Origin: Chloroflexota bacterium
Lineage (GTDB): Bacteria; Chloroflexota; Anaerolineae; Fen-1058
Direction of reading: 5' to 3'
Assembly (NCBI GenBank): GCA_016219235.1
Contig: JACRBO010000155.1
Span: 1-11,246, forward strand
DNA: 11,246 nucleotides
The notes under the pieces were generated by a model, which was not told the origin of the DNA, made no database searches, and saw only the letters and a list, made by a program, of their open reading frames with translations. A program made the translations under genes and the position numbers. Below are positions 4,765 through 9,026 of the stretch, piece after piece. The number at the start of each line of letters is the position of its first letter. Positions within the stretch are counted from its first letter, which is position 1.

Positions 4765-5509
4765 AGTTGTTCTGCGACGTCGATCGGGAGATAGTAGCCG
4801 AGTATCTGGGTGAAAAGGCGGCGACCTATACCCCGGACACGATGCGCACATTGCTCGCGGCATTCAAGAAATTGCAGGAAGGGCTGCGAGCGATGAACTG
4901 GATTCATGAGGCGATTGTGCCGGAAGACTGGACTATCAGTGGACGCAATCCGCCACGCGGCCCCTACGCGCCTGACGAGGCGACGGCCATCAAGGACTGG
5001 ATCAGGCAGCGTGATTCGGAATTCGGTCAGGCGTTGGATTTCATCCTGTCCTGCGGAGCACGGATCGATGAGACGCTGCATCTTCGTTCGGATAAGGTCT
5101 TCATGGACGAGGTGCGGGTCGAGTTGCAAGGTAAAGGTGGGCGGGTGCGAAATATTCAGGTCTACACGCCGACGTTCTGAAGACGCTGGATTTGTCGAGA
5201 CGCTTCGTCTATTTGAGCGAGCAACCCGGGCGATTGTGGAAAGATGGCTTAGAACGACGCGTGCGTCAAGGTTGTGACACACTCGGAATTCATCGGCGTG
5301 GCGTGCATGGGTTCCGGGCAACGGCGGCCTGTGAGTTCGTCGGGATCAAAGATGCTCTCGGTTACACAGAAATGGAGGCACGGCACGAGTTAGCAATGTG
5401 GCTGGGCCACAATCCGCATCGCACGGAGGTGACGTGTGCGTACGTGCCGAAGGAGAATCGTTCGCAATCAATTATCCAGGTCCAGCTTGACGACCGTCAT
5501 TATGGCTGA
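4605..5509 (+). pseudogene. Tyrosine recombinase / integrase, interrupted by a stop and a frameshift
   Basis: An ATG at 4605 has a GGAGG site 11 bases upstream (4589-4593). The frame meets TGA at 4656-4658 and then continues in the same frame as an open coding sequence (NGLYSFGYKNLVFDQAITF onward) to about 5170. There one base seems missing: reading ACGCCGACG as ACGCCGGACG restores the frame that ends with TGA at 5507-5509. The joined product of about 300 residues has an N-terminal SAM-like core-binding region and a catalytic domain. The recombinase residues are all visible: Arg in GARIDE (153), Lys in GKGG, HGFR for the H-x-x-R box, LGH for the second His, and Tyr in CAYVP. This indicates recent inactivation or sequence error. 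It abuts the broken DUF4386 gene, which suggests an inserted mobile element; no terminal repeats or att sites were identified. Confidence 0.8.
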
Positions 5510-5515
5510 TAAAAT
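5487..5515 (+). promoter_or_regulatory. Sigma-70-like promoter for the crcB riboswitch
   Basis: TTGACG at 5487-5492, a 17-base spacer and TAAAAT at 5510-5515 predict a transcript start near 5522, eleven bases before the aptamer. The -35 box and spacer lie inside the final codons of the recombinase, whose stop (5507-5509) touches the -10 box. The same -35 box and spacer length precede the other two fluoride riboswitches in this window. Confidence 0.75.
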
Positions 5516-5532
5516 CATTGCGTAGTTTAAGA

Positions 5533-5591
5533 GGCGATGAGGCTCGCCAGCAGATCTTCTGCGACCGTCGCAAGACTAATAGCTTCTACCG
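5533..5591 (+). promoter_or_regulatory. Fluoride riboswitch (crcB motif) upstream of crcB
   Basis: P1 is GGCGA/TCGCC (5533-5537 with 5544-5548) closing the diagnostic TGAGGC loop. A second stem (TCTT-TGCGA with TCGCA-AGA) follows, then CTAATAGC and the GCTTCTACC strand. GAGGC in the loop can pair with GCTTC at 5582-5586 to form the fluoride-binding pseudoknot, with one G-U pair. In known members, fluoride stabilises this fold and blocks the overlapping terminator, turning the gene on. Both the terminator and the crcB gene that follows support the call. Confidence 0.92.
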
Positions 5592-5613
5592 CAGCCACGG
5601 TAGAGGCTTTTTT
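5582..5613 (+). terminator. Riboswitch-controlled intrinsic terminator before crcB
   Basis: GCTTCTACCG (5582-5591) pairs over ten bases, one of them G-T, with CGGTAGAGGC (5598-5607) around a six-base loop, followed by six T residues (5608-5613). Its 5' arm is the same strand the aptamer uses for its pseudoknot, so terminator and fluoride-bound aptamer are mutually exclusive. Confidence 0.92.
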
Positions 5614-5629
5614 GTTGGGAGGACTCATT

Positions 5630-6004
5630 TTGGACAAGATGTTGATCGTTGGCCTGGGTGGCTTCATCGGGGCCAATGTGCGATACTGGCTGGGTGCGTG
5701 GATTGATACCCAGTTCGGCCTGCGCTTTCCGCTGGGCACGTTTCTCATCAATCTAACGGGCAGTCTGCTGCTCGGCTTTATCGCCACGATCACGATCGAG
5801 CGCGCGTTGATCGATCCGCGTTGGCGACTGGCCATTGGCGTCGGTTTTATTGGTGCGTACACGACCTTCTCGACCTTCACCTACGAATCAGTGAAGTTGT
5901 TGGAAGCAGGCTCGTACGGCCTGGCCGCGCTCAATGTGTTTGGCTCAGGCGCGTTGGGTTTGATCGGCGTGGGACTGGGCATCATCCTGGGCCGCGCTAT
6001 CTGA
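5630..6004 (+). CDS. crcB: Fluoride channel CrcB (Fluc)
   Basis: This four-segment membrane protein of 124 residues exports fluoride passively as a dual-topology dimer. Visible signatures are GGFIGANVRYWLG near the N-terminus, GTFLINLTGSLLLG (with the conserved Asn41) and GFIGAYTTFSTFTYE, whose two Phe residues (80 and 83) correspond to the Phe-box of the pore. The start is best placed at TTG 5630, six bases after GGGAGGA (5617-5623); an ATG at 5639 is fifteen bases away from that site. Longer readings starting at 5537 would begin inside the riboswitch and are not real. The gene sits directly downstream of a fluoride riboswitch and eleven bases before the DUF190-CBS gene, forming a two-gene unit. 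It appears intact. Confidence 0.95.
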   Translation: MDKMLIVGLGGFIGANVRYWLGAWIDTQFGLRFPLGTFLINLTGSLLLGFIATITIERALIDPRWRLAIGVGFIGAYTTFSTFTYESVKLLEAGSYGLAALNVFGSGALGLIGVGLGIILGRAI

Positions 6005-6015
6005 GGAGAGGCACG

Positions 6016-7390: not shown

Positions 7391-7427
7391 GTGGATGTGC
7401 CATCCCTTAAAGTAAGGAGTCAATTGA

Positions 7428-7985
7428 ATGGAAGAAGTTGATCGCACCACCTTGAGCAGCGCCCGCTGGGAAGAAAAATTCTTTCCCAATGCGCAGCTAA
7501 CGAAACTTGACATCGAACTCTTTCAGCACGATCTGGATGAGATGCACCAGTTTCTGGCAAATGGCAAATTTAGTTCAGACAACGAAGGCTGGCGATACTT
7601 ACTGGCTTCCGGCTACAGCTATGCGCGCGGTCAGGAGCAACTCGAACCCATTGACGAAACAGGCGAGCCAAATCCGATTGGGGCTGAAGAAAACCTGCGC
7701 CGATTGGTCCAGATTGAAGCCATGTATGCCGTGATGAAGCAGCGCGCCTACATCTGGATGAAAGATAACCAGGTCATGGAGATGCAGACGAACGCGCTGC
7801 GAATTCGGGGCGACGGTTACAAGATCAAATGCGAAGACCTCGAGGTCGAAGTGAAGGCGCTCAAGACTGAACTGGCTCAACTCAAGGCGCGGCAGGGTAA
7901 GGTCGCGTCAAATCAAGTCACTACATCGTCGCCCGCGACTGACTCGACTTCAGCCTCAAGGCTAAAACGCTTGCTCAAGCGGTGA
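7428..7985 (+). CDS. Fluoride-riboswitch-controlled protein of unknown function (185 residues)
   Basis: I do not recognise this family. The protein is soluble, with no signal peptide or membrane segment. The N-terminal region (1-70) is mixed, with [17 protein letters not shown] as a likely helix and [16 protein letters not shown] as a Trp/Tyr-rich stretch. Residues 85-130 look helical, 134-157 ([18 protein letters not shown]) form a short coiled coil, 161-178 is a Ser/Thr-rich linker and the end is basic (RLKRLLKR). The ATG at 7428 follows AAGGAG by nine bases. Because it sits directly behind its own fluoride riboswitch and promoter, it should be induced by fluoride. The next gene begins 24 bases after the stop. 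No enzymatic motif is visible. Confidence 0.85.
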
Positions 7986-8816
7986 ATGCAAATCGAGAGG
8001 AGCCCCCGCATGGCACTCAACACCGCTCAACAGACTTCGCTCAGTATCACGCTGCGCGAATTCGAAACGCGGCTGACGCGGCTGCGTGTGCTGCTGGACC
8101 ATTACGAGTCCAGCATACGCCTGACGCCCGACGGCGTCGACCGGCTCCGCCAGATGATCGATCGGCAGCAAACGATCATCGATGAACTCTATCGCTTCAT
8201 CGCCGACACCGACCGTATAGCCTTTGCCCTTCAATACGCCCTTCAACGCTTGATAGGTCTCGCTGCCCCAGCGCAGGGCCTCGCGGAAGTTCGGTGCGCC
8301 GACAGGTGCGATCATGAACTCTTGCAGATCGGTGCCCTGCCAGTTGGCATGCACGCCGCCGTTGAGGATGTTGAACATCGGCACCGGCAGCAGTTTGGCG
8401 GGCACGCCGCCGAGGTAACGATAGAGTGGCAAACGTGAAGCATCAGCCGCGGCGCGTGCCACAGCGAGGCTGACACCCAGGATGGCATTCGCGCCGAACT
8501 TGCTCTTGTTAGGCGTGCCATCGGCCTCCAGCATCACACGATCGACCCGCGCCTGATCGAGCGCGTCCTGCACGACCAGCACTCTGGAGATTTTCGTGTT
8601 GACGTTCTCGACGGCTTTCAACGTGCCTTTGCCGCCATAGCGGGCCTTATCGCCGTCGCGCAGTTCGAGGGCTTCATGCACGCCGGTCGATGCGCCTGAC
8701 GGGACAGCCGCGCGGCCATGCGCACCGCTTTCCAACGAGACCTCCACCTCGACGGTGGGGTTGCCGCGCGAGTCAAGAATTTCGCGGGCGAGAACTTTGC
8801 TGATCATTATGGACAT
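7962..8816 (-). pseudogene. eno: Enolase, N-terminal half only, under fluoride riboswitch control
   Basis: Residues 1-207 are clearly enolase (2-phosphoglycerate to phosphoenolpyruvate, glycolysis): [14 protein letters not shown], the mobile loop [41 protein letters not shown] and GYTVGVGDE. Homology ends exactly at the GDE active-site Glu. The expected GGFAP and the entire TIM barrel remainder (metal ligands, catalytic Lys) are missing; enolases are usually about 420-430 residues. The frame continues to 7962 by reading the opposite strand of the small helical gene. The region after NGGVHA reads NWQGTD, one residue longer than the DNNVD seen in typical bacterial enolases. The start has AGGAG seven bases upstream. 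Enolase is inhibited by fluoride, so riboswitch control is biologically sensible, probably for an extra copy. Confidence 0.9.
8010..8438 (+). CDS. Small helical protein, 3' end lost at a junction with enolase
   Basis: The start at ATG 8010 follows GAGAGGAG with suitable spacing; an upstream ATG at 7986, directly after the previous stop, has no such site. The native-looking part covers about 65 residues (to about 8204): [19 protein letters not shown], then a predicted helical hairpin ([17 protein letters not shown], then [19 protein letters not shown]). From about 8196 onward the frame reads the antisense of the enolase gene, so the remaining 80 or so residues to TGA 8436-8438 are probably an artefact of a deletion. 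It should be cotranscribed with the 185-residue gene under fluoride control. No family recognised. Confidence 0.55.
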
Positions 8817-8888
8817 GTTTGGACTCCTGAAGAGGATTGTTCAACTTGCGAGGCAAGTGAAGATTCGGGAAGGTGATCAATCGGCATG

Positions 8889-8928
8889 AAAAAAGCCCCT
8901 ACTACATGACGGTGTCACGAGTAGAGGC
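8889..8928 (-). terminator. Riboswitch-controlled intrinsic terminator before enolase
   Basis: Read on the minus strand, GCCTCTACT (8928-8920) pairs over nine bases, one of them G-T, with AGTAGGGGC (8903-8895). The inner part is extended by TGAC/GTCA, and six T residues follow (8894-8889). The 5' arm overlaps the aptamer's pseudoknot strand. Confidence 0.88.
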
Positions 8929-8980
8929 TATCAGCCGAAGAGCGGCGGTTGGCGTAGTCCAGTGAGCCTCATCGCTGGTG
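8920..8980 (-). promoter_or_regulatory. Fluoride riboswitch upstream of enolase
   Basis: On the minus strand the leader reads CCAGCGATGAGGCTCACTGG, a P1 with one C-A mismatch around the diagnostic loop. The CCAACCGCC segment, a GCCG/CGGC hairpin and TGATAGCCTCTACT follow. GAGGC pairs perfectly with GCCTC. Fluoride riboswitches upstream of enolase genes are known in other bacteria, which supports the assignment. Confidence 0.9.
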
Positions 8981-8997
8981 CGAATGGATTGAGGCAG

Positions 8998-9026
8998 ATT
9001 GCAGGCTGGAACAGGGCTAACGTCAA
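8998..9026 (-). promoter_or_regulatory. Sigma-70-like promoter for the enolase riboswitch
   Basis: On the minus strand, TTGACG (9026-9021), a 17-base spacer and TGCAAT (9003-8998) precede the aptamer by about 18 bases. The -10 box is weaker than those of the other two switches, but the -35 box and spacer length are identical. It lies between the TSUP transporter's stop and the aptamer. Confidence 0.65.

Follow-up and report, generated by a model that had tools for sequence, protein, structure and literature searches.

Three predicted fluoride riboswitches in one Chloroflexota contig and two uncharacterised gene families proposed as parts of an Anaerolineae fluoride regulon

The window analysed here, 11,246 bases that appear to be the whole of contig JACRBO010000155.1 (assembly GCA_016219235.1) of a Chloroflexota bacterium, carries three leaders identified as fluoride riboswitches, each in front of a different gene unit. 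Unit 1 consists of crcB and a gene for a DUF190-CBS protein, unit 2 of two uncharacterised genes, termed orfA and orfB, and unit 3 of an enolase gene (eno). There is good confidence that the three units would each be switched on by fluoride, that orfA and orfB recur as parts of an Anaerolineae fluoride regulon and that half of eno is lost in this contig. The DUF190-CBS protein is nearest, among the genome loci found, to that of a Thermoflexales bacterium (Chloroflexota; 77%), and the enolase piece is nearest, among 120 genomes of the class, to the enolase of genome G037 (81%). The class is named as Anaerolineae on the basis that genome searches seeded by genome G001 and by Anaerolinea thermolimosa (G003) returned identical genomes. 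These searches scored part of the candidates, i.e., 8-10 per genome for orfA and orfB and 17 for the riboswitch, so that all genome counts given below are lower bounds, and closely related genomes were all kept without thinning by kinship.

A comparison of the window with all 4227 Rfam families returned three matches to the fluoride riboswitch family RF01734 (E 1.9e-6 to 3.7e-5) and no other family at E ≤ 1. The aptamers are located at 5524..5595 on the plus strand (30.2 bits, E 3.7e-5), at 7297..7363 on the plus strand (34.2 bits) and at 8915..8985 on the minus strand (30.7 bits, E 2.6e-5). With a gathering score of 34 bits, an Rfam threshold test, as suggested in an earlier sequence-only reading of this DNA, is passed by the second element, while the first and third (30.2 and 30.7 bits) fall short, which weighs against their assignment. 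All three are nevertheless recovered by a lineage model for which 21 further copies and no window sequences were used, which scores them at 42.3, 51.4 and 52.6 bits, respectively (E 7e-11 or better), and which identifies exactly these three sites and none other up to E = 10. As two elements remained under the gathering score, 24 copies, comprising the three of the window and 21 from genomes of the class, were aligned for covariation. P1, P3 and the pseudoknot are paired in 97.8% of the cells of this alignment, and double-changed cells number 49 versus 12.8 ± 2.7 in shuffles and at most 4 in slid structures, with 8 of 13 pairs double-changed. Further pair types did not exceed the shuffles in the 24 aligned copies (16 versus 15.7). 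The TGAGGC loop and its pairing GCYTC strand are found in all three leaders.

Each aptamer is followed by a predicted intrinsic terminator. Terminator 1 (5581..5614, plus strand) has an 11-pair stem with a minimum free energy (MFE) of -17.2 kcal/mol (z -5.7) and a 5' arm that overlaps the pseudoknot strand, terminator 2 (7346..7383, plus strand) a 15-pair stem (MFE -28.0 kcal/mol, z -10.3) and terminator 3 (8889..8928, minus strand) a bulged stem (MFE -21.9 kcal/mol, z -7.3); a simple terminator scan lists the first two, not the third. In all three leaders, the 3' strand of the pseudoknot is at the same time the 5' arm of the terminator stem, so that ligand binding and termination should be mutually exclusive. 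This arrangement is the usual design of an ON switch, and the fluoride ON-switch mechanism is known for RF01734. Judging from this anatomy, the pseudoknot strand would pair into the terminator stem in the absence of fluoride and RNA polymerase would halt in the leader, while Mg-bound fluoride would steady the pseudoknot, prevent terminator formation and permit transcription of the unit. The loop, the pseudoknot strand and the overlapping terminator that the sequence-only reading had attributed to the three leaders are thus all present, and their identification as probable fluoride riboswitches with overlapping terminators is supported. Likeness to RF01734 comprises P1, P3, the pseudoknot, the conserved core, the overlapping terminator and the place upstream of crcB; the window differs by its two sub-gathering scores, by longer P1-P3 linkers in two of the elements and by the presence of three elements within 3.5 kb.

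A promoter-like site precedes each aptamer: TTGACG-N17-TAAAAT at 5487..5515 (plus strand) and TTGACG-N17-TAGAAT at 7269..7297 (plus strand) were identified both by a consensus scan and by their common -35 pattern, and TTGACG-N17-TGCAAT at 8998..9026 (minus strand) has a poor -10 element and is missing from the consensus scan. The TTGACG-N17 pattern, which was composed after seeing the sites, matches only these three places in the window. A general promoter scan yielded three sites versus 2.8 in shuffles, i.e., chance level, which speaks against giving the sites much weight. The combination of three leaders with three promoter-like sites fits a model in which the three units would be switched independently.

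In unit 2, orfA (7428..7985, plus strand) encodes a helix-rich protein of 185 amino acids (aa) with a long helix or coiled coil and a basic C-terminal tail, and orfB (8010..8196, plus strand) is represented by its 5' part of about 62 codons. Homologues of orfA were found at 22 places in 20 of 396 genomes of the class. On the same strand, the lineage model places a fluoride riboswitch within 6 kb upstream at 18 of these places (17 of the 20 genomes), within 3 kb at 17 and within 1.5 kb at 14. Of the other four places, three lie so near a contig end that the upstream sequence is 281 nt or less, and the fourth has a switch at a distance of 7.8 kb. For orfB, homologues were found in 18 of the 396 genomes, and a switch lies within 6 kb in 16, within 3 kb in seven and within 1.5 kb in five of them; the two without a switch in this range are genome G151 and a weak match in G099. 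By contrast, none of 69 control loci (30 TauE, 33 enolase and 6 ribbon-helix-helix (RHH) genes) had a switch according to the same model within flanks of about 1.5 kb, which were shorter where a contig ended; the TauE and enolase controls were a subset of the places found, and contig C58 of genome G065, whose switch-led, truncated enolase is one of the enolase places found, was not among them. The 1.5-kb counts are given alongside the 6-kb counts because the latter have no control of equal reach. Under the assumption of 4 Mb genomes and a lower-bound switch density, about 3e-4 switches per gene would be expected by chance within 6 kb.

Several points weigh against a simple reading of these counts. 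Some orfA loci served to train the lineage model, and the independent count is therefore that of the Rfam model: of 20 orfA loci scanned, which stand for 20 of the 22 places, 11 gave a riboswitch match at E ≤ 0.001, and seven of these matches reached or exceeded the gathering score. One arrangement is common to several of the genomes (L145, L146, L149-L151), so that 17 of 20 does not represent 17 independent events. The orfA of the window is distant from the homologues in the genomes (23-33%), and nearer ones, among them P0003, P0004, P0007 and P0010, sit on metagenome contigs outside the comparison. Finally, the switch lies 2-6 kb upstream of orfB in 11 of the 16 cases, for which shared transcription is assumed.

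These comparisons lead to the proposal that orfA and orfB belong to a lineage-wide fluoride regulon in Anaerolineae. Unit 2 would accordingly supply orfA and, in intact relatives, orfB, both small and mostly helical families that are associated with fluoride riboswitches by comparison. The ligand of a riboswitch can hint at what an uncharacterised gene behind it does, and here a fluoride switch marks two uncharacterised families as likely parts of a fluoride response, far above the chance level and above the controls. Since the ligand of the switch is known, the function of orfA and orfB is directly testable, and the host group is large and mostly uncultured. No report linking either family to fluoride was found in the open-licence literature.

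Both orfB and eno are incomplete, and they meet tail to tail. The eno gene (8193..8816, minus strand) comprises the first approximately 208 codons, with a full Enolase_N match (201 bits, positions 1-131 of 131) and an Enolase_C match restricted to positions 3-70 of 296. Enolase homology stops at GVGDE, about residue 208, and the open reading frame (ORF) continues to 7962 as unrelated sequence. The C-terminal barrel of enolase is the seat of the catalytic residues. On the other side, homologue matches cover 44% of the orfB ORF in 13 of 13 homologues above 75 bits (P0141-P0153), 12 of which are 137-143 aa long, and P0141 represents a full-length orfB with 95% identity over the shared part. The resemblance to the orfB family ends with the codon ending at 8194, and a blastn match to the G037 enolase (77.9%) begins at 8197; both homologies therefore stop at a junction at 8194..8197. 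None of 20 proteins among the matches listed covers more than 54% of the orfB ORF, so that none of them spans the junction.

The sequence-only reading had described an unknown two-gene unit, an enolase behind the third leader and a fluoride-defence island in which this enzyme is a fluoride target. Unit 2 is retained with a truncated orfB, and the third leader does precede the first half of an enolase, but its role as a replacement target enzyme is not upheld for this contig, as the homology ends near residue 208: unit 3 would be a riboswitch-led enolase minus its second half, with no working enzyme as it stands. The idea of a local island gains comparative support with respect to the unknown partners, which recur behind switches in Anaerolineae, and not with respect to the incomplete eno.

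The junction reflects either a true deletion or a misassembly of sequences from one genome. Tetranucleotide composition correlates across it with r = 0.87, versus a within-locus median of 0.86 and a maximum of 0.75 between the left side and 19 foreign loci. The alike composition speaks against a chimera between species, which is not favoured, and does not distinguish a deletion from a misjoin. An assembly error, in which case switch 3 and a complete enolase would be located elsewhere and only two switches would be neighbours, is a serious if somewhat doubtful possibility. It would account for the loss of both 3' halves at one point and agrees with the lack of a listed protein across the junction, with the existence of P0141 and with the source, a contig record of 11,246 bases in which the antiporter gene near the contig end is likewise incomplete. 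Apart from the even composition, it is opposed by relatives in which a riboswitch-led enolase is found near a riboswitch-led crcB or behind orfB (L011, L017, L254), and by a second truncated riboswitch-led enolase. The latter was observed on contig C58 of G065 (L229:1216-2017), where a riboswitch is followed by an enolase fragment with homology to about residue 141 and by a second riboswitch 0.7 kb further on; the G065 genome carries a 436-codon enolase frame elsewhere. This suggests that real decay of such a gene has a precedent.

The gene orders in which orfA and orfB occur bear on whether they take part in a fluoride response or are passengers in fluoride-switched operons without any role in fluoride tolerance. 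In loci L138, L143 and L147, orfA is located directly behind the switch. Other orders are switch-DUF6062-orfA-HEAT-MFS-pyrophosphatase (L150), switch-MFS-orfB-x-orfA-x-crcB-DUF190CBS (L135), switch-orfB-crcB-DUF190CBS (L008) and switch-orfB-eno (L254, L017), where Pfam supplied the labels DUF6062, HEAT and pyrophosphatase and MFS was assigned by eye. A passenger status appears unlikely: although general genes such as those for HEAT-repeat and MFS-like proteins share these runs and orfA and orfB lack a known function, the association survives several gene orders. Given this recurrence in varied orders, the gene set of the window resembles the fluoride regulon of other members of the class. Published descriptions of genes behind fluoride riboswitches (PMC5533749, PMC11139923, PMC2864571, PMC7266159, PMC8814607) include those for enolase, pyrophosphatase and Na+/H+ antiporters (PMC11139923, PMC5533749) and mutS (PMC2864571).

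DUF6062-like genes were the commonest labelled family in the sampled loci, found behind 47 of 139 fluoride riboswitches (L126, L129, L144-L146, L149-L151 and more). The 139 distinct switches derive from 149 entries; one entry of one scan and seven of another were left out as repeats of the same places, and the loci were chosen partly by DUF190-CBS, orfA and orfB, so that these numbers are counts and not frequencies. No paper on DUF6062 was found in the open-licence literature, which for fluoride riboswitches in Chloroflexi yielded a single title, on Megasphaera.

The orfA protein matches no family above cut-off in Pfam or NCBIfam; its own family comprises 20 proteins among the matches listed, itself included, and a scan of viral contigs found no homologues. 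In the homologues, the N-terminal approximately 50 residues have a strand-helix-helix appearance. The N-terminal pieces of 19 family members hit seven Pfam families at E ≤ 10, four of which are RHH types (RelB being one of these), with best E values of 6.6e-4 for FitA-like_RHH and 0.013 for RHH_1. An hhalign comparison of the orfA N-terminus with six RHH pieces of the same class gave a weak match (63%, score 22.7 over 34 columns), which exceeds the maximum of 12.8 in 100 column shuffles and of 16.9 in 15 other tiles. The likeness to RHH proteins (PF01402, FitA-like RHH) is thus confined to the first approximately 50 residues of some homologues, from which the orfA family differs by an additional extended coiled coil and by a basic tail that many members carry; in orfA, the long helix with coiled-coil matches lies C-terminal of the RHH-like stretch.

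Several results count against an RHH assignment. The RHH-type hits come from only 3, 2, 1 and 1 of the 19 pieces, the N-terminal piece of the window's own orfA has no Pfam match at E ≤ 10, no piece of the family reaches the cut-off of a curated RHH model, and six full-length family members show no RHH match. PDB profile searches with orfA returned chiefly coiled coils, with NikR at E = 1.1, and the AlphaFold model is poor (predicted local distance difference test, pLDDT, 64.7), with helices and no RHH strand. As no curated cut-off is reached, orfA is not filed as RHH. For orfB, a PDB profile search gave no match below E 0.25 and the AlphaFold model is also poor (pLDDT 61.1). On sequence grounds, the likeliest role of orfA, although weakly supported, would be that of an accessory DNA-binding or scaffold protein with an RHH-like N-terminus and a coiled coil. 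It is a tentative and rather doubtful extension that the fluoride response of Anaerolineae has two layers, in which the riboswitches would induce not only exporter and target enzymes but also a dedicated RHH and coiled-coil orfA and its helical partner orfB, and these two would act as fluoride-stress regulators or scaffolds.

Unit 1 would provide the CrcB/Fluc fluoride channel and the DUF190-CBS protein. Pfam confirms both genes that the sequence-only reading had placed behind the first leader: crcB (5630..6004, plus strand) matches PF02537 over positions 1-103 of 103 (98.2 bits) and, as read from the sequence, starts with a TTG after GGGAGGA or with an ATG at 5639, and the 416-aa DUF190-CBS protein (6016..7266, plus strand) matches PF02641 (127 bits) and PF00571 (166 bits, four CBS stretches). 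A search with the latter protein returned 958 proteins at E ≤ 1e-3, a number that includes the query, and a riboswitch is present in the retrieved DNA of 18 of 30 Chloroflexota DUF190-CBS loci (L001-L023, L025-L031). In the related crcB-DUF190-CBS locus of a Thermoflexales genome (L001:480-610), crcB seems to have retained its terminator and lost the aptamer, with no riboswitch match. Pairs of MutS domain V proteins of about 500 aa were observed directly behind fluoride riboswitches, often preceding crcB-DUF190-CBS (L005, L113); the naming rests on Pfam for three proteins and on profile similarity for L010, L015, L131 and others. Such mutS-type genes behind the switch in relatives agree with Weinberg 2010 (PMC2864571).

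Immediately 5' of riboswitch 1, a tyrosine-recombinase-like gene remnant is located in two frames at 4761-5509. It raises the question of whether a mobile fluoride-resistance island was delivered by an adjacent integrase, for which Enterobacter cloacae offers a published parallel in a fluoride island with flanking transposases (PMC5533749). This explanation is considered improbable: the remnant is weak, with an XerC model match of E 4e-4 for the first piece and no match for the second, scans of the window found no tRNA and no convincing flanking repeats, and the even composition and the 77% match of the DUF190-CBS protein to a Thermoflexales genome likewise oppose it. In a plasmid search with 198 matching records, the 20 among the matches listed align with the enolase part alone. 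Least credible of all, and practically dismissed, is the view that the three leaders are chance look-alikes, as the sub-gathering scores of two elements are set against E ≤ 4e-5 over all of Rfam, terminator stems in place and the recovery of exactly these sites by the leave-out model, on which chance RNA matches were rejected.

At least one fluoride riboswitch was found in 81 of 298 genomes of the class, at 116 places; 60 of these genomes have one place, 14 have two and seven have more, with eight switches found in A. thermolimosa. Two switches within 10 kb occur in 11 genomes and three within 10 kb in four of the 81 (G003, G093, G186, G274), where the starts lie 6.1, 6.9, 8.4 and 9.5 kb apart. 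In the window, the three starts span 3.4 kb, the tightest triple met. Three-switch clusters can therefore be called rare but not unique, and some genomes of the class have a fluoride defence spread over clusters of separate switches instead of one operon. A deletion at the junction would mean that the cluster had been wider before, and with a misjoin there may be no triple at all. The four other clusters likewise have three switches among crcB-DUF190-CBS, orfB, eno, MFS, MutS-like or DUF6062 genes, but they are looser and differ in gene order. The E. cloacae FRM operon ppaC-uspA-eno-gpmA-crcB-orf5249 (PMC5533749) shares with the window the control of crcB and eno by a fluoride riboswitch, yet it has one riboswitch for six genes versus three in the window, where ppaC, uspA and gpmA were not seen and eno is incomplete.

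Divergent, back-to-back riboswitch pairs were also observed, at L122:2479-2637 and L133:6369-6607, with 94 and 161 bases from start to start. Elsewhere in the window, two small membrane-protein-like genes lie at 3241-3957 and 4201-4764, the second of which is DUF4386-like at a score under the cut-off and seemingly broken near 4600. At the other end, a gene on the minus strand (10022-11098) encodes a Na+/H+ antiporter without the first approximately 166 profile positions and adjoins a short, perfectly paired hairpin close to where the contig ends.

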